64,000 nucleotides of DNA from positions 1 through 64,000 of the forward strand of contig LAKY01000067.1 in NCBI GenBank assembly GCA_000987045.1, given 5' to 3'. This DNA is from Clostridiales bacterium PH28_bin88. GTDB lineage: Bacteria > Bacillota > PH28-bin88. Under the pieces are notes generated by a model that ran no database searches, had not been told where the DNA came from, and worked only from the letters and a program-made list of their open reading frames with translations. A program made the translations under genes and the position numbers. This document shows positions 7,814 to 64,000 of this stretch, piece by piece (the stretch's first letter is position 1; each line of letters starts with the position of its first letter).

Positions 7814-8575
7814 GTGTCCGGACACTCTAAATGGGCGAACATTAAACACCGCAAGGCCAAGATGGATGAGAAGAGGGGAAAGCTTTTTACTAAGCTTGGG
7901 CGGGAATTGGTTATCGCGGTCAAGCAGGGTGGCGGTGACCCTGAAGCCAATCCACGGCTGAAGGTAGCCATTCAAAAAGCGCGGGAAGCGAATATGCCCA
8001 TGGAAAACATCAATCGTAACATTCAAAAAGCCACCGGGGAACTGGGCGGTGTTGACTTCGAAGAGACTGTTTATGAGGGCTACGGTCCAGGTGGGGTGGC
8101 GGTACTGCTCAATATCACCACAGATAACCGCAACCGTACCGCCGGTGAAATCCGTTACCTCTTTTCCAGGAACGGGGGAAACCTGGGGGAAAGCGGGTGC
8201 GTAGCCTGGATGTTTGACCCCAAAGGAGTAATTACCCTTGACACGTCTAGCGGCCAAATGGACTCCGAGGAGGTAATGCTGCAGGCAATTGAAGCGGGAG
8301 CGGAAGACGTCAGCGTGGATGATGGTGTCCTGGAGGTGATAACGGCGCCTGAGGATTTAGAGCGAGTTAAGCAGGGTTTGTCAGGAGCAGGACTAAAATT
8401 TGAACAGGCGGAGATGACCATGGTGCCGAAGAATACCGTAACCGTGGAGGATGAGGGGCAGGCGCGACAGGTCCTTCGCCTGATGGAATTGCTGGAAGAC
8501 CACGACGACGTCCAGGCGGTATTCGCCAACTTTGATATACCCGAAGAGATTATGTCCAAAATAGAATCGGTTTAA
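7814..8575 (+). CDS. yebC: YebC/PmpR-family protein
   Basis: A 253-residue full-length YebC family protein, with the typical start SGHSKWANIKHRK, the GAGAEDV-like central region and the C-terminal dimer fold. Such proteins were described as transcriptional regulators and more recently linked to translation of difficult peptide stretches. The GTG at 7814 has AGGAGGG eight bases upstream; the frame extends back to 7661, but that part runs through a terminator. In this lineage it commonly precedes ruvCAB, as here. Confidence 0.95.
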   Translation: MSGHSKWANIKHRKAKMDEKRGKLFTKLGRELVIAVKQGGGDPEANPRLKVAIQKAREANMPMENINRNIQKATGELGGVDFEETVYEGYGPGGVAVLLNITTDNRNRTAGEIRYLFSRNGGNLGESGCVAWMFDPKGVITLDTSSGQMDSEEVMLQAIEAGAEDVSVDDGVLEVITAPEDLERVKQGLSGAGLKFEQAEMTMVPKNTVTVEDEGQARQVLRLMELLEDHDDVQAVFANFDIPEEIMSKIESV

Positions 8576-8583
8576 GGAGCCCG

Positions 8584-8620
8584 GAAGCCGCCCCTACAGG
8601 GGCGGCTTCACTGGTATATT
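8584..8620 (+). terminator. Terminator after yebC
   Basis: An 11-bp perfect stem GAAGCCGCCCC/GGGGCGGCTTC with loop TACA. The T-run (ATTTTT) comes about ten bases later, so efficiency is uncertain. Confidence 0.6.
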
Positions 8621-8674
8621 TTTGCCAACATTCGTCAAAGCTAGGGTAACGGTCAATTGGAGGAGGGAAACGGC

Positions 8675-9253
8675 TTGTTTTGGTCAAGGTACCGTCACAT
8701 CCTCATTACCCTGGTTTTGGCTTCCGCGTTTAGCGGTATCCTGGCTTTCTTGGTGAGTTCGGAATGGCAACAGATTCCGGCAAACCGCTATTTAACAGGG
8801 GAAGTAGGATCGGCGAACAGGGAAACGGGAGAAAGGGTGGTGCAGTATTACAGGTTTCAGAACCGGTACAGCTTGTGCGGGCATACTGTTCCGGTTGAAA
8901 ACCCCGGAGTGGATTTGGAAGGGCTTAGGCTGGAGGATATCCGGAAACGGTACCCGGGAGAGGCCGGGTGGGTGGTGGACACTTCTCCTGGAGGAGAGGT
9001 TACTATTACCAGAAAAGTGGACGGACTTTGCCCGGAGGACGCCGGCCAACGCCACCTGGGCGTTTTGGGGGAATATGTGGCGGTATACGTAGGGCCGGTG
9101 GGTATCAACGGGGGTCTTGACAGGGTAACTCCTATCAAGGTTTCCGATCTTCCCAAGGAGTGGCAGAAGCTGATCCGGGGTGGTGGGTTGGGGTTCACCA
9201 GCGAGGCGGAACTCCTCGAGGCGCTTGATAGTTTCGACGAATACCAGGAATAA
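8675..9253 (+). CDS. BofC-like protein
   Basis: A 192-residue protein with an N-terminal membrane anchor or signal (about residues 8-28) and an extracytoplasmic domain containing CGHTVPVE and GLCPEDAGQRHLGV, features of the BofC C-terminal domain. BofC acts in the space between mother cell and forespore to delay SpoIVB, the protease that triggers sigma-K activation. The TTG at 8675 is chosen because GGAGGAGGG ends seven bases before it; the TTG at 8657 overlaps that site. The yebC-bofC-ruvC order fits other spore-forming Clostridia. Confidence 0.72.
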   Translation: MFWSRYRHILITLVLASAFSGILAFLVSSEWQQIPANRYLTGEVGSANRETGERVVQYYRFQNRYSLCGHTVPVENPGVDLEGLRLEDIRKRYPGEAGWVVDTSPGGEVTITRKVDGLCPEDAGQRHLGVLGEYVAVYVGPVGINGGLDRVTPIKVSDLPKEWQKLIRGGGLGFTSEAELLEALDSFDEYQE

Positions 9254-9425
9254 ATATTAATTCCCTGCCTCCGGTTTCTCCGGGGGCATCTCTATATTAT
9301 AAGAGTGAACCAAATACTCCGGCGCAGGAATACGCCTCTTTCCCGTCGAATACTTGAAGTCATGGACAATACGTCTTTCCACCGGAACATTCGCTGGCGG
9401 TTGGCCAGAAAGGGAGCGGGTTACC

Positions 9426-9929
9426 ATGTTGGTGCTGGGAATTGACCCGGGGACATCCATCACCGGGTACGGGTTGGTTGAAGCCCAGGGAGGGAAATTC
9501 AAGCCCGTCAGTTACGGATGTGTACGCACCCCCGCAGGAGAAGCCCTTCCCCGCCGGCTGCAGGTGATTTACCGGGAGGTACGATCACTGATCGAAAGGT
9601 ACCGGCCGGACTTCATTGCGGTGGAGGAATTGTTCTTTAACAAGAATACCCGCACAGCATTGGTGGTAGGCGAAGCGCGCGGGGTGATCCTTTTAGGCGC
9701 CGCGGACGCCGGCTTGGAGGTATGGGAGTATACACCTTTGCAGGTTAAACAGGCGGTGGCGGGATACGGGCGGGCAGAGAAATGCCAGGTACAGGAGATG
9801 GTACGGGTGCTGCTTTCTCTGCCCGGAATACCCAAGCCGGATGATGCAGCCGATGCGCTGGCTGTTGCCATTTGTCATGCGCAGAGCCTGCGGTGGCATC
9901 AGGCCTGTGCCCGGGAGGTGGAAAAGTGA
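9426..9929 (+). CDS. ruvC: Holliday junction resolvase RuvC
   Basis: A 167-residue endonuclease that cuts Holliday junctions after RuvAB branch migration. The four acidic active-site positions are visible: GIDPG at the N terminus, VEELFF in the middle and the DDAADALA pair near the C terminus. The start is the ATG at 9426, just before MLVLGIDPG; the frame extends upstream but is not conserved-looking. Its stop overlaps the ruvA start. Confidence 0.97.
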   Translation: MLVLGIDPGTSITGYGLVEAQGGKFKPVSYGCVRTPAGEALPRRLQVIYREVRSLIERYRPDFIAVEELFFNKNTRTALVVGEARGVILLGAADAGLEVWEYTPLQVKQAVAGYGRAEKCQVQEMVRVLLSLPGIPKPDDAADALAVAICHAQSLRWHQACAREVEK

Positions 9930-55794: not shown

Positions 55795-55962
55795 CCCGGT
55801 CACAAGCCGGGCCAATTTTTGTTGCTCGGTTCAAAAAAACTATTGAAAATTACTCAAATGCTATTAATATATAAGTATAGAGGTATTAGGTGTGGCCGTG
55901 GGAACCGGCGGGTTTCGGACTGTGCGTTTTTCCTTTATAGCGGTGGTTGAGGGGTGAAGGAA

Positions 55963-56739
55963 ATGGCCAATGTAGGGGTACACATACGGCATTACAGAGA
56001 AGACCGGGGATATACCCTGCAAGAGACAGCCCACCGGGTTGGAGTATCGGTTTCTTATCTCAGTGAGATTGAACGGGGTGTCAAAAACCCTTCCATTAAG
56101 GTCCTGAACAGGGTTTGCCGGGAATTAAACATTCCACAGGAGAAGGTAATGCAGAAGGCATTTTACGGAGAAAGGGGCAATGCCTGTCTCGGGGACAAGA
56201 TCAGGATGAGAAGACTGGAGCTGGAAATGTCGCCCGCGCAAATGGCTGAAAAGGTAGAGGTCTCTACCGTCTACCTGGCGGATATCGAGATGGGTAGGCT
56301 GTATCCTCCGAATGATATTCTTCAAAGGATGGCAGAGGTGCTCAAGCTACCCCTTAGCCTATTGGTGGAATGCTCGGGCAATCACCTGGGAGCCAAGGTC
56401 AAGGAACTCAGGCTTAACCTGGAGATTACTCAAGGGGAGCTAGCCGGCCGGGCCGGGCTTTCGGCCGCCCTGATAGGCCAAATTGAAAACGGAAAGGTCC
56501 AACCTTCGCTAAAAACTATTGAAAAGATCGCTGAGGCTTTGGGCATCTCCCCATGCTACCTGATGGTGGAGAAGAATGGCCTGGAAGACATGTTAGCTTC
56601 CCTCGGCCCCGATCTAAGGGAACTCCTCCTGGACAACAACGTGCAGGCCATCCTGAGGCAGATTTGCCAGCTAGGAGAGAAGGAACTCCGGTTTATTTTG
56701 AAATTTATAGAGGACTTTAAGCGTGCAAATTTTACATAG
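55963..56739 (+). CDS. Regulator with three HTH (XRE) domains
   Basis: A 258-residue protein made of three consecutive Cro/C1-type helix-turn-helix domains at about residues 6-58, 74-128 and 136-188. Each has the SxxYLSxIExG pattern (VSYLSEIERGVKNPS, TVYLADIEMGRLYPP, AALIGQIENGKVQPS). A helical C-terminal segment (LRELLLDNNVQAILRQICQLGEKEL) follows. XRE regulators normally have one or two such domains. Targets are unknown; it lies just upstream of the arsR region. ATG 55963 has GAGGGGTGAAGG upstream. Confidence 0.85.
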   Translation: MANVGVHIRHYREDRGYTLQETAHRVGVSVSYLSEIERGVKNPSIKVLNRVCRELNIPQEKVMQKAFYGERGNACLGDKIRMRRLELEMSPAQMAEKVEVSTVYLADIEMGRLYPPNDILQRMAEVLKLPLSLLVECSGNHLGAKVKELRLNLEITQGELAGRAGLSAALIGQIENGKVQPSLKTIEKIAEALGISPCYLMVEKNGLEDMLASLGPDLRELLLDNNVQAILRQICQLGEKELRFILKFIEDFKRANFT

Positions 56740-56806: not shown

Positions 56807-56938
56807 AGAGACGGTTTGTTTCTTGGATTTTCCTTAAATCAGCGGGTTCGAATTTATGCAGCACTTTAGTGAGTGGCACTTGTCGCCTGGTCCGTGGCAA
56901 GTTTCACATGCTAGGCAACCTCAGGGTTGCCTTCTTTT
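56807..56938 (+). ncRNA. Probable small RNA or leader upstream of arsR
   Basis: A 130-base stretch runs from the promoter at 56772-56800 to a terminator at 56913-56932 (AGGCAACC/GGTTGCCT, loop TCAG, then TCTTTTG). It has no convincing frame. Inside, ACTTG and CAAGT enclose GC-rich sequence with partly pairing arms (GTGA.../...TTCAC). It may be a free small RNA or an attenuator leader for the arsR-type gene 80 bases further on. No known RNA family was recognised. Confidence 0.55.
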
Positions 56939-57013
56939 GTGGAAAGAACGGGCGAGTACTTGCTTACAAACGTATATATTGATAAAATAATGAAAATAGG
57001 AAGGAGGACTGCC

Positions 57014-57337
57014 ATGGATGAGCGTTTGCTTCAGATGGAAGCGGATTTTTTAAAAGCTCTAGCCCATCCTACCAGGATCAGGATCCTGGAAAGCTTGCGA
57101 ACCGGGGAAAAGTGCGTCTGTGAGTTTACCGAGGACCTTGACCTGGAACAGTCCAACACTTCGCAGCACCTGGCGGTTCTCCGGCGGCAGGATATTGTAA
57201 GCTGCCGCAAGGAAGGACTCAAAGTTATCTACCAGGTCAATTACCCGGAGATCTTTCAACTACTGGACCTGGTGAAACACCTTCTTTACGCCCAGGTCAA
57301 GGTCACCATGGACAGTTTGGCACATCTGGAGGTTTAA
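57014..57337 (+). CDS. ArsR-family metal/metalloid-responsive repressor
   Basis: A 107-residue winged-helix repressor of the ArsR/SmtB family. KALAHPTRIRILESL and SNTSQHLAVLRRQDIVSCRKEG are typical. CVCEF at residues 34-38 corresponds to the ELCVCDL arsenite-binding motif of ArsR, with a further cysteine at 64. It should release DNA on binding As(III), Sb(III) or a similar soft metal. ATG 57014 has AAGGAGG upstream. The nearby methyltransferase-peptide operon and the Acr3-like gene are candidate targets. Confidence 0.87.
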   Translation: MDERLLQMEADFLKALAHPTRIRILESLRTGEKCVCEFTEDLDLEQSNTSQHLAVLRRQDIVSCRKEGLKVIYQVNYPEIFQLLDLVKHLLYAQVKVTMDSLAHLEV

Positions 57338-57385: not shown

Positions 57386-57415
57386 TTGACACCAAACATG
57401 TGTTCTGGTTATAAT
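57386..57415 (+). promoter_or_regulatory. Promoter of a mini-ORF
   Basis: TTGACA and TATAAT with an 18-base spacer, about 22 bases before a 23-codon frame. Confidence 0.8.
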
Positions 57416-57622: not shown

Positions 57623-57675
57623 AGAGGGGTTACGGTACCGGTGAATTGCCAACTTTCCGTAACCCCTTTAATTGT
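57623..57675. terminator. Bidirectional terminator between the mini-ORF and the RACo-like gene
   Basis: AGGGGTTACGG pairs with CCGTAACCCCT around a 21-base loop; TTTAATTGTTTTT follows on the plus side and TCTTATTATT on the minus side. Confidence 0.75.
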
Positions 57676-57688
57676 TTTTCTGTAAATT

Positions 57689-59617
57689 TTACAGGTTGCT
57701 TGCCTTTTTTAGCGAACTCTGATCCAGCAGGGAAGGGAACAGGCTCAAATCTGTGTGGGGCAGGAACATGGCGGATACAAACTCGTCCATAAAGGTTGTA
57801 CCTACCGACAGTTCCAGGTAGGTCATCATCCGGCCCAGTTCTTCGACCTTCAGCCAGGCTGGTTTGGACAGCAGGGCTGCTTCCGCTCCTTTTAGAGAAC
57901 TGTTACCGATAAACTCGTACTTTTCCGGGGGAAGATCCGGCAGCAACCCGATGGCCACAGAATCGTGGATGTTCAGGTAGTTGCCGAAACCGCCGGCGAT
58001 GAGGACCTTGCTGATATCAGGCATCTCCATGCTTACCATATGCAGCAGGCTGCGGATACCGGCAAAGATGGCTCCCTTGGCCCGCAACAGGTTTTGCACA
58101 TCGCTTTCAGAAATGGTGATATCCTTGTTGACACCAGATTCTGAAGCCCAGGCCAGTACGAACTCCATGTCGCCATCTACCGATCTGAGGCGAGGGGTGG
58201 GAAGGTCGTGCTGGAACTTGCCCGCCCGGTCGATCACGCCTGCTGTCTGAAGTTGGGCGAGACAATCGATCAGCCCGGAGCCGCAAATTCCCACCGGCTT
58301 TCCACCGCCGATTACGCTTAAGCGTACGTCGTGGGTGCCGGGGTCAATTTCTACCCTCTCGATTGCCCCGTCCATGGCCCGCATGCCGCACGCGATACCC
58401 CCTCCTTCAAAGGCAGGCCCGGCAGAGCAAGCGCAGGTCACCATCCACTCCCGGTTGCCCAGCACCATTTCGCCATTGGTACCGATGTCAATGAACAGCA
58501 CCGGTTCTTCCGACTCGGCGACCCGGCTAACCAGTACGCCGGACACGATGTCCCCGCCCACATAGCTGGCTACCGACGGGAAGTTGAGCACCGGGGCAGC
58601 CGGCAGAACGTTCAGCCCCAACTCTCCTGCGCTGGAGGTCGGCACCCGGGTAAAGGTGGGGATGTAGGGTTCCAGGCGAATATATCTGGGGGTCGAACCC
58701 ATCAACAGGTGGGTCATGGTGGTATTGCCGGCGCTAACCACTAGGTAGACCCGGGTATGATGGATGTTGTTTCTTTGCAGCAGGGTTGCGATCAGGTCGT
58801 TAATGGTCGACACCACCGCCTCCTGCAGTTGCCGCAAGCCGTTATTTTCTTCGGTGGAATGGATCATCCGGCTGATGACGTCATCGCCGTAGCGGGACTG
58901 GCGGTTGTAAGTACCGGCCTGATCCACAACGCGTCCGGATTCCAGGTCCACCAGAGCCACGACCACTGTGGTGGTACCGACGTCAATGGCCAGGCCGTAA
59001 GGGGGTATCCGGTCGTGCCCAGGGAGTACCTGCAATACCTGGGGTTCGTCGTTATAGTCGGCCAGTACGGCCGTCACCTGCCAATCGCTCTGGCGGAGAT
59101 GCTCCGCCAGGTTCCGTATCACGGGCCAATCAATGCGGAAATGCTGGTGCCCGGTTATTTTGCGCAGTTCGCCTTCCAGCCGGGTCAGGTCGCTGGCGTT
59201 TTCGGTAACGCTCGGGGGTTCGAGGGTGAGCAATAGCTTTTTAACCAGTGGCTGAAAGGCATTGCCCGCCAGCAGGTCGACCTGTTTTTCCGCCAGCAGG
59301 CCTTTGTTTCCCGTCAGAACCCGGTGTTCCCGCAAGCGGGTATCGGCTGTGGTTTCTACCACCACATCTCCTGCCACGTGAGTCATACAGGCCAGTACCT
59401 GGCCTGATTTCCGCAACCTGGGGGGAAGGTTGCCTTTAGCCTCGTCCTGTACTTTACCTTCTTTTACCTTTACGGCACAGCGCCCGCAGGTCCCTTTACC
59501 GCCGCAGGTGCTGGCCAGGTCGATACCGGCCAGGTTGGCTGCCTTAAGCAGGGAAGTGCCATGGTCTACCTCTATGGACACATTATCCGGTTGAAAAGTT
59601 ACCTGGTGCTTATCCAC
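57689..59617 (-). CDS. RACo-like ferredoxin-ASKHA protein (DUF4445)
   Basis: A 642-residue protein: an N-terminal plant-type [2Fe-2S] domain (Cys38, Cys44, Cys47, Cys77; STCGGKGTCGRC), a linker, and a large ASKHA-fold ATPase domain (YGLAIDVGTTTVVVALVDL, SAGNTTMTHLL, FIDIGTNGEMVLG, LIAGGFGNYL). This is the plan of RACo, which reduces the cobalt of corrinoid proteins at ATP cost. No corrinoid protein or its methyltransferase is in the window, so its client is unknown; it may reactivate a cofactor of the upstream enzymes. The GTG at 59617 is preferred; the frame extends to 59686 without a ribosome site. Confidence 0.85.
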   Translation of the reverse strand: MDKHQVTFQPDNVSIEVDHGTSLLKAANLAGIDLASTCGGKGTCGRCAVKVKEGKVQDEAKGNLPPRLRKSGQVLACMTHVAGDVVVETTADTRLREHRVLTGNKGLLAEKQVDLLAGNAFQPLVKKLLLTLEPPSVTENASDLTRLEGELRKITGHQHFRIDWPVIRNLAEHLRQSDWQVTAVLADYNDEPQVLQVLPGHDRIPPYGLAIDVGTTTVVVALVDLESGRVVDQAGTYNRQSRYGDDVISRMIHSTEENNGLRQLQEAVVSTINDLIATLLQRNNIHHTRVYLVVSAGNTTMTHLLMGSTPRYIRLEPYIPTFTRVPTSSAGELGLNVLPAAPVLNFPSVASYVGGDIVSGVLVSRVAESEEPVLFIDIGTNGEMVLGNREWMVTCACSAGPAFEGGGIACGMRAMDGAIERVEIDPGTHDVRLSVIGGGKPVGICGSGLIDCLAQLQTAGVIDRAGKFQHDLPTPRLRSVDGDMEFVLAWASESGVNKDITISESDVQNLLRAKGAIFAGIRSLLHMVSMEMPDISKVLIAGGFGNYLNIHDSVAIGLLPDLPPEKYEFIGNSSLKGAEAALLSKPAWLKVEELGRMMTYLELSVGTTFMDEFVSAMFLPHTDLSLFPSLLDQSSLKKASNL

Positions 59618-59738
59618 ACTATCGCCTACTTTCGCGCATAATATGTAGGGCGAAACGCGGCCCGGGCCATTCCTGGTCCAGGCCAATCAGCACGATTCGC
59701 AACAAGTCTTGATTTCTGGGCAGGCCATTACACCACTT

Positions 59739-61019
59739 CTATTGGCTTTCTGCCAGGTAGCGTTCCGCCTGTACCGCGGCTACCGCGCCGTCACCGGCGG
59801 CGGTCACTACCTGCCTGACGGTCTTGTTGCGGACATCACCGGCGGCGAACACACCAGGCAGGCTGGTTTTCATGTTATCGTCAGCCATGATGTATCCCTG
59901 GGGCGTGATCTCCATCTGACCTTGCAAGATGGTAGTCTCCGGCTGGGTACCGATGTAGACGAAGACGCCGTCGGCGGGTACAAAACGGTGTTCGCCGGTT
60001 TTCAGGTCTTTGACGGTGAGTCCGGTCAGGTGGCCTTCCCCGTTAACCTCTACCACGTGGCATCCCCAGACAAAGTCGATTTTCTCATTGTCAAAAGCCT
60101 CATCCTGGGCGGTTTTGGAGGCCTGCAGGTGATCGAACTCGTGTACAATAGTTACCTTGGATGCAAAACGGGTCAGGTAAACCGCTTCTTCTACCGCCGA
60201 GTTACCGCCGCCTACCACGATCAGGTTCTTACCTTCGTACATCGCCCCGTCGCAGGTGGCGCAGTAGTGCACACCACGGCCGCGCCACTCGGCTTCGCCT
60301 GCCGCAGGCAGTTTCCGCGGCTGGGCGCCGGTGGCCACAATCACAGCACGGGCGTGGTAAATGGTGTCTTCGGTGGTCACTACTTTGGTAGAGCCGGTCA
60401 GGTCTACCTCCAGGACCTCCTTGAAATCTTCCACCTTTACCCCGAAAGAGACGGCCTGCTTCAACATGCCTTCCATCAGGTCCTTGCCTCTTACTACCCC
60501 GTCGGTACCGGGATAATTCGCGATGTGATAGGTATTGGCCGCCTGGCCGCCGGGTAGCCCCTCATCCAGGAGGATTACGTTCAGTTTAGCTCTGCCGGTA
60601 TAAATCGCCGCAGTCAGCCCCGCCGGGCCGCCGCCCAGGATCAATACGTCACAATTCACCACGGGTTTTTCCGCGGGTAGCTGGTCGGCGCCTACCACGT
60701 CTTCAATAGCCTTGCGCAGTTCCGGCTTTTTAATGTACCCGGAGAGTCGTGAACCAACTTCCCGGCCGTCTTTAAAAAACATTACCGTGGGGCTGGACTT
60801 GACCCCATAGCGTTCAGCCAGCGCCCTGTTGGCCTGGCGCAGGATTTTTACGAAACGCAAGCGGTTCCCGTACCTCTCCGCCAGGCGCTCAAACATCGGT
60901 GCCAGGGCGGCGCAGGGGGCGCAGTCTTCTGAAAAATAATCCAGCACGACCGGCAGGTCGCTGTTAAGGACGTCCTGTTCAAAGCGTTCTGCGTTGGTGT
61001 ACAGGATATTGTCGCTCAT
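59739..61019 (-). CDS. Thioredoxin-thioredoxin reductase fusion
   Basis: A 426-residue fusion. Residues 1-105 are a thioredoxin domain with active site CAPC (Cys33, Cys36). Residues ~118-426 are a thioredoxin reductase with the FAD site LILGGGPAGLTAA, the redox pair CATC (Cys253, Cys256) and AAGDVRNKTVRQVVTAAGDGA. The nucleotide loop GGGNSAVEEA is kept, but the NADPH-phosphate motif HRRxxxR is replaced by HEFDHLQ (from His293). The electron donor may be NADH, F420 or ferredoxin rather than NADPH. It overlaps the radical SAM gene by four bases, so it is coupled to it. Confidence 0.9.
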   Translation of the reverse strand: MSDNILYTNAERFEQDVLNSDLPVVLDYFSEDCAPCAALAPMFERLAERYGNRLRFVKILRQANRALAERYGVKSSPTVMFFKDGREVGSRLSGYIKKPELRKAIEDVVGADQLPAEKPVVNCDVLILGGGPAGLTAAIYTGRAKLNVILLDEGLPGGQAANTYHIANYPGTDGVVRGKDLMEGMLKQAVSFGVKVEDFKEVLEVDLTGSTKVVTTEDTIYHARAVIVATGAQPRKLPAAGEAEWRGRGVHYCATCDGAMYEGKNLIVVGGGNSAVEEAVYLTRFASKVTIVHEFDHLQASKTAQDEAFDNEKIDFVWGCHVVEVNGEGHLTGLTVKDLKTGEHRFVPADGVFVYIGTQPETTILQGQMEITPQGYIMADDNMKTSLPGVFAAGDVRNKTVRQVVTAAGDGAVAAVQAERYLAESQ

Positions 61020-62392
61020 GCCGGTATCCTCCCATCAGCCATTTTTACAATCTCTTCCCAATAGTATTCGAGGCCCAAGCTCAAGAGTTCTTTAATGGGG
61101 CGGCAGTCGGGAGATAACACCGAACCATTACGCTCATTGGCTACCACGCCGCATCCACCGCCGCACACCAGGCTAACGTCACAATCACGACACTCGGGAA
61201 TGGTGTTAACGTTCCTGTCGATCCAGGGTTGCAATACCTGGCGGTCATACTTCAGTTCCGGGACAAAGTTGCCAAACTGGTAGCCTTCCCTTCCACAGGA
61301 GGCCGTACAGCCGAATATGTGGCCGTTCAGGTCGTACACCCACTCCTTCTTACCGGCGGGGCAGGTGTCAAAACTGGGGTCTGGTAATTCGCCGGTCAGG
61401 GCCAGGTGCCGGATACCCTTGAATTCTGGCTGGTGAAATTTCTTCAGTACAGGGTTGGTGCGGGAAACCTCCACGAAGGAGCGCCATAACTCCACTTGCG
61501 AGAAGAGGTCTTCCGGACTTTCCGAGCACTGGAACAATTCGTAATTACGCCCGAGCTGGGTCTTGAATCTCGCGGCGCCAAGATCAAGCCATCCCCGGTG
61601 GTCCAATTCCTCGGCCAGGGGTACCAGAGAAGGCAGGTTTTCTTTGTCTACCACCACGCGAAAGTTGATGGGAAACCCCTTTTGCACAGATAGTTCTATT
61701 CCGCGCATGATGGACTCGTAGGTACCCCGGCCGGCCCTGGTGGGGCGCCTGGTGTCGTGGACAGCCTGCGGGCCGTCCACTGTCACCTGCACCTCTTTGA
61801 TGCGGGCCATGGCCAGGGTCTCCACATAGTCGGACAGGTGGTACCCGTTGGTGACCACCGCCAGCTCATATCCCAGTTCCCTGCTGCGGCGGCAGATATA
61901 GTCGATGGCTTCCCGTTGCTGTGGTGAATTAATCAGGGGTTCACCGCCGAACAGGGTAATGAAGGGAGGAATTTCTTCCTCCCGGAAGGTTTCCTGCATG
62001 TGCCCGAAGAAGGCGTCCAGGTACGCCCTGGAAATCACCTGGTGTCCCTCCTGGATGCCTTGCTGGAAACAGTACCGGCATGCCAGGTTGCAGTTGTATG
62101 TTGGTATTAAAAATACCTGGGTGGGGGAATGCCTTAAGGAGTCCTGAAATTCACTTTCCTTCACGGCGAGGAGCAGGTCTTCCTGCATCCGGTCCCGGTA
62201 TACATAGCCCCGGTTTTCCAAGTAGGTGACCAGGGAAGCATCCACCTGACCGGTATTACCATCGCCAAGAGAAGAAAGTTGGTCCACCTCGTCTTTTGTG
62301 GCCAGGTCAAAGGAACCGCTGAGGAAATTCATCAAGGCGTATTCCCCGGGTTCGGGTGATTTGAGGATCAGGTTGTATCTGCTAGGGTACAT
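61016..62392 (-). CDS. Radical SAM/SPASM peptide-maturase-like enzyme
   Basis: A 458-residue radical SAM enzyme. Residues ~1-90 form an N-terminal domain of the kind that binds peptide leaders in RiPP maturases. The cluster motif CNLACRYC has Cys101, Cys105 and Cys108. FGGEPL follows at ~148. The C-terminal SPASM region carries Cys344, 362, 366, 401, 404, 410, 414 and 430, enough for two auxiliary 4Fe-4S clusters. Related enzymes (anSME, SCIFF maturase, QhpD) modify cysteine-containing peptides. ATG 62392 has GGAGGAGG upstream. The 43-residue Cys-rich peptide gene lies 82 bases before it and is the probable substrate. Confidence 0.88.
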   Translation of the reverse strand: MYPSRYNLILKSPEPGEYALMNFLSGSFDLATKDEVDQLSSLGDGNTGQVDASLVTYLENRGYVYRDRMQEDLLLAVKESEFQDSLRHSPTQVFLIPTYNCNLACRYCFQQGIQEGHQVISRAYLDAFFGHMQETFREEEIPPFITLFGGEPLINSPQQREAIDYICRRSRELGYELAVVTNGYHLSDYVETLAMARIKEVQVTVDGPQAVHDTRRPTRAGRGTYESIMRGIELSVQKGFPINFRVVVDKENLPSLVPLAEELDHRGWLDLGAARFKTQLGRNYELFQCSESPEDLFSQVELWRSFVEVSRTNPVLKKFHQPEFKGIRHLALTGELPDPSFDTCPAGKKEWVYDLNGHIFGCTASCGREGYQFGNFVPELKYDRQVLQPWIDRNVNTIPECRDCDVSLVCGGGCGVVANERNGSVLSPDCRPIKELLSLGLEYYWEEIVKMADGRIPA

Positions 62393-62474
62393 GATCAGGT
62401 TTTCCTCCTCCGGTTGGGCAGGATTAAGGACACGGAAAACACGTCGCGCCTTGAGTCCATCCTAAATAGGTTGC

Positions 62475-62606
62475 CTAGTCATGACATCCGGCTACGACTT
62501 TGGAAGACTTGGAGCAGCACTGGGCGACGGGAACCGTCCGTACCGCCTGGCAACAGGAGTTGGTCTCAACGCCTGCTGAAAGCTTCCCCTTGGTGATAGC
62601 TTTCAT
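62475..62606 (-). CDS. Cys-rich 43-residue peptide, candidate RiPP precursor
   Basis: A short frame between the methyltransferase and the radical SAM gene, same strand. ATG 62606 has GGAAGGGGGTG six bases upstream. The first ~14 residues (MKAITKGKLSAGVE) are basic to neutral and could be a leader. The rest holds five cysteines: CC at 18-19, CC at 30-31 and C at 41, in a Ser/Lys/Val context, ending CHD. It has no signal peptide or membrane helix. Size, position and composition are those of radical SAM-modified peptides. It does not match the six-cysteine SCIFF pattern as I know it. Confidence 0.72.
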   Translation of the reverse strand: MKAITKGKLSAGVETNSCCQAVRTVPVAQCCSKSSKVVAGCHD

Positions 62607-62637
62607 TATTAACACCCCCTTCCACCAGGTTAAACAA

Positions 62638-63270
62638 TCAATCCTTGCGCCCAAGTATGGTGATGCTGGCTACCGGGTAGCCATACTTCAGGTACTCATG
62701 GCGGGACAGGAATTCCACCCGGCGGAAGCCGGCCCCGGAGATGGCATCCAGGTACTGGTCTTCCGGAATGGCCCCGCCGTAGCAAAGGGACCAGGCGACG
62801 GGGTCGCTGGTGACCTCGTCAGGCAGGGCCTCTTTGGCGATGACATCCGAGACCACGAAGCGGCCCCCGGGTTTTAACACCCGGTGGATTTCACTGTAAA
62901 CCCGACCTTTATCTTGGGCATGATTGATCACGCAGTTGGAAATGACCACATCCACTGAGGAACTGGCGAAGGGGAGGTCTTCAATTTCCCCCAGGCGAAA
63001 TTCAGCGTTGCTCACTCCTTGTTCACGCCGGTTTGCTTCAGCCTGTTCTACCATAGCCGGTGTCATGTCGACCCCGTAGGCAAAACCCGTAGGTCCTACC
63101 AGCCTGGCCGCGTTTAAGACCTCTAGCCCCTGCCCGGAGCCAAGGTCCAACAGGACTTCGCCCGGTTGAAGGCCGGCGTGAGGCAGGTTGTTCCCGCAGC
63201 TCAGGCAGGCTGTGGCGTTAGGAGCTTCTTTTCCGTAACGCTCCTGGATCTTAACCTGAATCTGGCTCAT
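62638..63270 (-). CDS. ArsM-like SAM-dependent methyltransferase
   Basis: A 210-residue class I methyltransferase resembling As(III) S-adenosylmethionine methyltransferase (ArsM). Motif I is DLGSGQG (42-48); GVDMTPAMVEQA, GEIEDLPF, ISNCVINHAQDK and RVLKPGGRFVVSDVI match the family. Of the arsenic-binding cysteines, Cys163 (SLCYGGA) and an N-terminal pair (Cys22, Cys25) are plausible equivalents; the C-terminal cysteine of long ArsM forms is absent. It may methylate arsenite or a cysteine in the neighbouring peptide. ATG 63270 has GGTGGG upstream. First gene of the operon. Confidence 0.85.
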   Translation of the reverse strand: MSQIQVKIQERYGKEAPNATACLSCGNNLPHAGLQPGEVLLDLGSGQGLEVLNAARLVGPTGFAYGVDMTPAMVEQAEANRREQGVSNAEFRLGEIEDLPFASSSVDVVISNCVINHAQDKGRVYSEIHRVLKPGGRFVVSDVIAKEALPDEVTSDPVAWSLCYGGAIPEDQYLDAISGAGFRRVEFLSRHEYLKYGYPVASITILGRKD

Positions 63271-63307: not shown

Positions 63308-63336
63308 ATTATACTAAGATATGCATAATCAAGCAA
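63308..63336 (-). promoter_or_regulatory. Promoter of the methyltransferase-peptide-radical SAM operon
   Basis: On the minus strand TTGCTT and TATAAT have a 17-base spacer. The spacer contains GATTATGCATATC, a near-palindrome centred on ATGCAT. ArsR-type repressors bind such AT-rich dyads between the boxes, so the nearby ArsR-type protein may act here. Confidence 0.7.
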
Positions 63337-63374: not shown

Positions 63375-63533
63375 TTACTGGTTTTTCAGCTTTTGTAGGA
63401 TTGCCTCAAGGGTTTGGCAATCCTCACAACCTTGATCTACTCCTCCCTGTTGGCACTTGTCAACGCAAGTTTCAACAGCCTTCCGCAGTACGATCATTTC
63501 ATCCGGTGTCAGTGAAATACTGGTATTGGGCAC
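63375..63533 (-). CDS. Small four-cysteine protein upstream of the methyltransferase
   Basis: A 52-residue frame starting at GTG 63533 with AAGGAAG about ten bases upstream. It reads VPNTSISLTPDEMIVLRKAV and then CVDKC and CEDC, ending in a Leu/Lys-rich helix. Two Cys pairs within 17 residues suggest a metal site or a disulfide hairpin. It is on the same strand as the ArsM-like operon and ends 39 bases before its -35 box. I do not recognise the family. A hairpin (AGGATTGCC/GGCAATCCT) lies inside the coding sequence. Confidence 0.6.
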   Translation of the reverse strand: MPNTSISLTPDEMIVLRKAVETCVDKCQQGGVDQGCEDCQTLEAILQKLKNQ

Positions 63534-63693: not shown

Positions 63694-63718
63694 TGAAAAA
63701 ACAAGGGGGGTGTTGCTA

Positions 63719-64000
63719 TTGGTTAAAAAGATCTTTTATTTCCCGGCTCAAAACCTGGTGACGGTCATTCCCGCTGTCTTGGCCATTGCATTCCTGGTGG
63801 GGAGTTTCTATCAGACACAGGTGCTTAAAAACTATATCCTTCCGGCTACATTTTTAATGATCTATCCTACCATGATTGGCTTCAAGCTAGTAGAAGCGGT
63901 AAACTTTAGCCATGCCAGGGTGCTGCTCTGGTCGCTGGGACTAAACTTTATAGTCATTCCTTTGGTTGCGTACGCCCTGGGGTCCGCTTTCTTCGCCAGT
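63719..64000 (+). CDS. Acr3/bile acid:Na+ symporter-like permease, 5' part
   Basis: Ninety-four codons are in the window, from TTG 63719 with AAGGGGGG eight bases upstream, and the frame runs off the edge. It encodes at least three membrane helices. MIYPTMIGFKLVEAV and LGLNFIVIPLVAYALG resemble the second and third helices of Acr3-type arsenite exporters, which belong to the bile/arsenite/riboflavin transporter superfamily. The Acr3 cysteine would be further right. Next to an ArsM-like gene and near an ArsR-type gene, arsenite efflux is the likely role. Confidence 0.7.
   Translation, partial: MVKKIFYFPAQNLVTVIPAVLAIAFLVGSFYQTQVLKNYILPATFLMIYPTMIGFKLVEAVNFSHARVLLWSLGLNFIVIPLVAYALGSAFFAS

Follow-up and report, generated by a model that had tools for sequence, protein, structure and literature searches.

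A 64,000-nucleotide (nt) stretch of contig LAKY01000067.1 from Clostridiales bacterium PH28_bin88 (GCA_000987045.1), referred to here as the window, carries a conserved four-gene cassette that encodes an ArsM-like methyltransferase, a short cysteine-rich peptide, a radical S-adenosylmethionine (SAM) enzyme with a SPASM domain, and a thioredoxin-thioredoxin reductase (Trx-TrxR) fusion. The peptide and the radical SAM enzyme very probably constitute the precursor and maturase of a ribosomally synthesized and post-translationally modified peptide (RiPP), and this part of the interpretation is well supported. The cassette as a whole is tentatively read, at somewhat less than an even chance, as a new class of radical SAM RiPP whose product serves as an intracellular thiol ligand or carrier, most likely for the methylation of As(III); the arsenic part is one that we infer. 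The four core genes are the following.

62638 to 63270, minus strand: ArsM-like SAM-dependent methyltransferase of 210 amino acids (aa), scoring 227.4 bits against the NF008823 cut-off of 263
62475 to 62606, minus strand: RiPP precursor-like peptide MKAITKGKLSAGVETNSCCQAVRTVPVAQCCSKSSKVVAGCHD of 43 aa, found in 19 of 399 genomes and adjoining the radical SAM gene
61016 to 62392, minus strand: predicted radical SAM/SPASM peptide maturase of 458 aa, matched by Pfam Radical_SAM
59739 to 61019, minus strand: fusion of thioredoxin (C33-x2-C36) and thioredoxin reductase (C253-x2-C256), 426 aa, matched by TIGR01292 and PF00085

The sequence, the open reading frames (ORFs) and the NCBIfam and Pfam matches place these genes, together with a gene for a RACo-like protein, on the minus strand between 57689 and 63270, and the coordinates confirm the short gaps and overlaps that an initial annotation of this DNA had described for the five. 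The ArsM-like gene runs from an ATG at 63270 to a stop at 62638 and is separated by 31 nt from the peptide gene (62606 to 62475), which is followed after 82 nt by the radical SAM gene (62392 to 61016). The latter shares 4 nt with the Trx-TrxR reading frame (61019 to 59739), and about 120 nt beyond the end of the fusion lies the RACo gene (GTG at 59617, to 57689).

Independent profiles for the peptide and the radical SAM enzyme were searched against 399 genomes of the phylum. The peptide profile returned one copy in each of 19 genomes, plus one spurious weak match (G353, E 4e-4) that lacks a radical SAM neighbour and was dismissed. The radical SAM subfamily profile returned exactly the same 19 genomes, all above 660 bits with the next best match at 309 bits (Fisher p 7e-33 for the co-occurrence, with related genomes treated as independent). 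These carriers represent about 5% of the sampled genomes and span 12 families and 14 genera or fewer. Their coordinates show the peptide gene adjoining the radical SAM gene in 19 of 19 cases. The neighbourhood comparison covered every carrier except G365, which belongs to the same genus as G085, G120 and G229. An ArsM-like gene was found near the peptide at each locus compared, and the Trx-TrxR fusion at each but that of G171, where an orthologous fusion (68%) is located on another contig and adjoins a small four-cysteine protein. Gene order differs among genomes, the TrxR gene standing at either end of the set or on the opposite strand, and the flanking genes differ as well; the linkage is therefore not simply inherited synteny. 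The recurrence of the core as a unit in 18 other genomes, which belong to 13 additional genera, indicates that the arrangement is more than chance. The initial annotation had named rare association of its five genes in related genomes as the result that would speak against the set, and for the peptide and the radical SAM enzyme the outcome was the opposite. In contrast, the RACo gene was present in none of the other cassettes examined and is thus not conserved with the other four. In G057 and G024, the 1.5-kb flanks of more distant relatives of the radical SAM gene contain neither an ArsM gene nor a related peptide. Plasmid-borne spread was considered and rejected, only distant radical SAM matches having been obtained.

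Peptides of this family are 34-43 aa long and typically contain 5-6 cysteines. They mostly start in the manner of M(K/R)(A/P)(I/V)T, continue through a variable middle that mostly includes CC or CCC, and end in AQCCSK-x6-GCH(D/N), a C-terminus found at 19 of the 19 loci compared. When the 16-codon core was compared pairwise, 1278 codon differences of a single nucleotide were counted, of which 1131 (88%) leave the amino acid unchanged; random changes would be expected to do so in 22% of cases. It is therefore the amino acids rather than the DNA that are conserved, and the C-terminus is under strong selection at the protein level. A Shine-Dalgarno-like sequence precedes most of the peptide starts, and translation is predicted. 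The peptide matches no family in Pfam or NCBIfam (release 20). Its cysteine content would also suit a metallothionein-like scavenger of soft metals or metalloids, which the radical SAM enzyme only rigidifies while the ArsM-like enzyme detoxifies arsenic in parallel, and the additional small cysteine proteins encoded in many cassettes (a four-cysteine protein and a DUF5714 protein, described below) agree with such a role. However, conservation in the core is no weaker at the other residues (A, Q, SK, G, H) than at the cysteines, and metallothioneins need no maturase, so this explanation is unlikely.

The cysteines of the CX3CX2C motif of the radical SAM enzyme (C101, C105, C108) and those of its SPASM domain (C344, C362, C401, C404, C410, C414, C430) are invariant among 15-16 orthologues. 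The AlphaFold2 model (predicted local distance difference test score 90.5) contains an N-terminal β3-α domain, of three strands and helices, whose shape resembles that of a RiPP recognition element (RRE), the structure matches themselves having been made with the whole protein. CteB (5wgg) is the best of the solved structures nearest to the model, which also include anSME, TigE, SuiB and ChlB. CteB, TigE and SuiB are all RiPP-type enzymes, and CteB is a thioether-forming maturase; with CteB as the nearest fold, the formation of thioether cross-links on the peptide is a reasonable guess by analogy.

Known maturase families are more distant, as the enzyme falls far below the cut-offs of all of those in NCBIfam (PapB, CefB, TIGR04463, SCIFF). 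Its best matches, over nearly the whole length, are to CefB (NF038107) and TIGR04463, which comprise maturases of cysteine-rich RiPPs; it reaches only 135.9 of 600 and 125.7 of 525 bits, respectively, and the precursor peptide is different. The PapB family is also among the best matches, at 109.6 of 340 bits. In the ranthipeptide and sactipeptide systems (SCIFF-CteB, PapA-PapB) a short cysteine-rich peptide is likewise encoded directly before a radical SAM/SPASM maturase, but the peptide of the cassette has no sequence similarity to a Pfam or NCBIfam family. We know of no fixed ArsM-like and Trx-TrxR partners in those systems.

The RiPP assignment thus combines a short encoded precursor that is co-inherited with its modifying enzyme, selection acting on that precursor, and an enzyme with both the CX3CX2C motif and the SPASM cysteines. 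The earlier proposal that a radical SAM/SPASM enzyme, a thiol-rich modified peptide and a dedicated dithiol reductase belong together is likewise supported by the co-occurrence and the conserved motifs, as far as sequence can tell. A maturase closest to the thioether-forming CteB and PapB might instead be expected to produce an exported antimicrobial RiPP, i.e. a bacteriocin of the sactipeptide or ranthipeptide type, with the remaining proteins as tailoring enzymes. Such a product is very unlikely, however, as no gene for export, proteolysis or immunity accompanies the set in a conserved manner and the core has not diversified across the 12 families.

The case for arsenic begins with the methyltransferase. 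Three cysteines of the As(III) type (C25, C113, C163) are invariant in a 14-member alignment and align with Cys72, Cys174 and Cys224 of CmArsM, which bind As(III) and are required for methylation (PMC3877260). The PDB matches of the protein are arsenite methyltransferases (5evj, 4kw7, 4fr0). As a control, the next ArsM-like protein of the genome, on contig C38, was inspected and shows GVAG in place of the third cysteine; the three-cysteine site is therefore not just family background. The cassette enzyme has the SAM fold and the three As(III) cysteines in common with ArsM (NF008823; CmArsM 4fr0/4kw7), but it is shorter, carries a family-specific S(N/D)C-x-x-NH motif and always stands beside the RiPP pair. 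As its score lies below the ArsM cut-off, it is named ArsM-like.

The reductase partner points in a compatible direction. The fusion scores 358.1 bits with TIGR01292, above the cut-off of 343.45, and both CXXC motifs are invariant in 15 fusion orthologues, as is HYCA(T/I)CDG. In G004, G043 and G059, which have no cassette, the best matches to the fusion span the TrxR part only. Trx, TrxR and NADPH form the known reductant system of mammalian AS3MT (PMC12608789), so that a Trx-TrxR fusion beside an ArsM-like enzyme fits arsenic methylation; it fits reduction of the peptide, too.

In the scheme proposed here, the RRE-like N-terminal domain of the SPASM radical SAM enzyme would bind the leader of the peptide (34-43 aa), and the enzyme would modify the AQCCSK-x6-GCH(D/N) core, most likely by introducing one or more thioether cross-links to core cysteines. 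Since the cassette has no conserved protease or exporter, the modified peptide would stay in the cell, where its remaining cysteines would bind the metalloid. The Trx-TrxR fusion would draw on NAD(P)H to keep both the peptide and the methyltransferase reduced, and the ArsM-like enzyme, with its complete three-cysteine site, would methylate the bound metalloid. The four-cysteine and DUF5714 proteins may act as accessory thiol or metal proteins. In its most specific form, in which the modified peptide is a dedicated intracellular carrier for the binding and methylation of a metalloid such as As(III) and is recycled by the Trx-TrxR fusion, i.e. a peptide cofactor for arsenic biochemistry, the scheme is possible but doubtful.

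Several points weigh against the arsenic scheme. The modification of the peptide by the radical SAM enzyme is a prediction and no acceptor residue is obvious. The ArsM-like protein, in addition to scoring under the NF008823 cut-off, is without the C-terminal part of ArsM, and the enzyme could act on the peptide and not on a metalloid. An ArsR gene and an Acr3-like transporter gene adjoin the cassette only in the window, and no ars genes were noticed in the other cassette flanks that were read, a reading made without a library scan of every flanking ORF. The main rival explanation holds that the product of the cassette is a thiol or redox cofactor derived from the peptide, comparable to pyrroloquinoline quinone (PQQ) or mycofactocin, and that the ArsM-like enzyme methylates the peptide, with arsenic playing no part. 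This would agree with the finding of no ars genes in the other flanks that were read and with the conservation of the core down to GCH(D/N), which exceeds the need of a mere chelator, and the Trx-TrxR fusion would serve as the recycling enzyme. Yet the fully conserved three-cysteine As-type site would be superfluous for a peptide methyltransferase, and no conserved protease is available to free a small cofactor. The cofactor explanation is therefore likewise doubtful.

The regulator gene to the left of the operon had been cited, together with the transporter gene to the right, in favor of arsenic or another thiophilic element.

56927 to 57337, plus strand: ArsR/SmtB regulator with a CVC motif (NF033788, 95.9 bits, cut-off 55), convergent to the operon and a candidate link only

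Part of that argument stands, namely the intact three-cysteine site of the methyltransferase and the CVC motif of the ArsR protein. The other part does not, as the transporter fails the Acr3 cut-off (64.8 bits against 282.8 for TIGR00832), so that its Acr3 identity was rejected, and the flanks of the other cassettes gave the result described above. The transporter gene, which starts in the window (63710-64000, plus strand) and continues to position 9726 of locus L030, belongs to a distinct BASS-type (SBF) group; its members in nine other sample genomes are 55-68% identical and have varied neighbours. A triple-helix-turn-helix XRE-type regulator is encoded at 55954-56739 (plus strand) of the window, with homologues (43-46%) beside the cassettes of loci L026, L028, L075 and L087. 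Judged from these positions, this protein, rather than ArsR, may be the regulator of the cassette.

Further features of the operon and its surroundings are as follows.

63375 to 63533, minus strand: small four-cysteine protein of 52 aa with a GTG start and the pattern C-x3-C-x2-GG-x4-C-x-D-C, homologues of which occur in cassettes
63308 to 63336, minus strand: putative promoter TTGCTT-17-TATAAT ahead of the ArsM-like gene, recognized by direct reading of the sequence
59687 to 59728, minus strand: cysteine-rich mini-ORF of 13 codons, MACPEIKTCCESC, ending in TGA, in frame with RACo and with a hairpin after the TGA
57689 to 59617, minus strand: RACo/AcsV-like [2Fe-2S]-ASKHA protein of 642 aa (PF17650, PF17651, PF14574, Fer2), accessory
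57625 to 57667, minus strand: terminator-like hairpin 3' of RACo, 11 bp, with a fold of −20.9 kcal/mol (z −3.24)

The gene for the four-cysteine protein, which was absent from the earlier list of five, heads the operon. The protein has no Pfam family, and the 12 genomes of the 399 in which it was found are without exception cassette carriers (p 1.8e-18 with genomes treated as independent). Its homologues lie inside the cassettes of L026, L028, L075, L078, L082, L083 and L087, beside the unlinked Trx-TrxR gene in G171, and at unlinked sites in G112 and G279. A DUF5714 protein is encoded in about half of the cassettes (L026, L028, L024, L029, L075, L076, L077, L079, L080, L087) and resembles the front part of MbdU (NF045648), a metal-binding double selenoprotein; no paper on DUF5714 was among those listed by the literature search.

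The RACo-like protein has the Fer2 domain and the RACo linker, middle and C-terminal domains in common with the corrinoid activator AcsV/RACo. In contrast to AcsV, however, it is encoded outside an acs operon, with no acs genes beside it, and scores 700.4 bits with NF040756, under the cut-off of 800. The AcsV of this genome, encoded on contig C28 within a recognisable acs operon, has 61% identity with it, and the window copy is thus a paralogue, perhaps recruited to the cassette site. As it is missing from the other cassettes, it was rejected as a core member, and the ATP-driven iron-sulfur reductase that the initial annotation had made part of the pathway was not borne out. A system for corrinoid or iron-sulfur activation built around this protein, as in the Wood-Ljungdahl pathway, would be in keeping with its complete domains and with its place as the last gene of a same-strand run that ends at a terminator. 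It would also be in keeping with G052, where a further AcsV paralogue and, next to it, an orthologue of the Acr3-like transporter are encoded about 11 kb away from the cassette. Such a system is nevertheless highly improbable, given the absence of RACo from the cassette in other genomes, the residence of the genome's AcsV in its own acs operon, and a neighbourhood in which no corrinoid protein was noticed. In G006, as in G052, the further AcsV paralogue directly precedes the transporter orthologue (about 67%) at the same distance of about 11 kb, and a loose linkage of this pair to the cassette is conceivable. Positions 4993-9579 of locus L088 (G052) hold the AcsV paralogue, the transporter orthologue and a methyltransferase gene, followed by a protein similar to one beside the L077 and L079 cassettes.

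The hairpin 3' of the TGA of the mini-ORF has a z value of −1.9, and the genome encodes SelB and tRNA-Sec; readthrough with selenocysteine at this TGA is a possibility suggested by the sequence. An N-terminal extension of RACo as a conserved selenoprotein was rejected, as the homologues start at the ferredoxin domain and the mini-ORF was not seen upstream of them. A TTG start for RACo at 59686 is unlikely for the same reason, that the homologues begin at that domain.

The single good promoter assigned earlier to the operon is good in part. Its TATAAT is perfect and the spacing is 17, but the −35 element (TTGCTT) is poor, and a consensus promoter scan did not report the site at 63308-63336, which fell below threshold. 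No Rfam element was matched in the cassette region. A perfect sigma-70 consensus promoter (TTGACA-18-TATAAT) is present at 57386-57415 of the window on the plus strand, directed at the 3' end of RACo, and behind it sits a 23-codon ORF, MEKLLTSHQAAENAVQKLTKRER, with a ribosome-binding site.

Among described systems, the organoarsenical pathways that involve ArsL (arsinothricin) and ArsS (arsenosugars) likewise pair a radical SAM enzyme with an ArsM-type methyltransferase. ArsL and ArsS act on small molecules, whereas the cassette encodes a peptide maturase of the SPASM type together with a peptide of its own. The cassette was also compared with the selenoprotein neighbourhoods linked to arsenic or metals that Haft and co-workers described (ArsM/DUF2284, ArsM/AhpD, MTase/UXPK-star, MbdU, TrsS; reviewed in PMC13188914). 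The DUF5714 partners resemble MbdU, but the core cassette has no selenocysteine and is centred on a RiPP precursor-maturase pair. ArsM-like methyltransferases, thiol/selenol proteins and radical SAM proteins are families listed for selenocysteine-using bacteria, and PMC8552651 deals with arsQML. A literature search that covered neither bioRxiv nor most subscription journals found no system joining a radical SAM RiPP, ArsM and thioredoxin reductase. Having no match in NCBIfam release 20, Pfam or the literature found, the four-gene combination and its peptide family are apparently undescribed, in agreement with the initial annotation, which knew of no described system with exactly its set.

The radical SAM RiPPs described so far act mostly as antimicrobials, signals or cofactors, and ArsM-type methyltransferases are known as stand-alone detoxification enzymes. 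In the cassette, a RiPP pair is combined with a methyltransferase of the arsenic type and its known reductant system, and the combination has been kept together in 12 families. If the interpretation is correct, it would add a new role for RiPPs, either in metalloid handling or as a peptide thiol cofactor, and some bacteria may handle arsenic or a similar element with a modified peptide of their own making.

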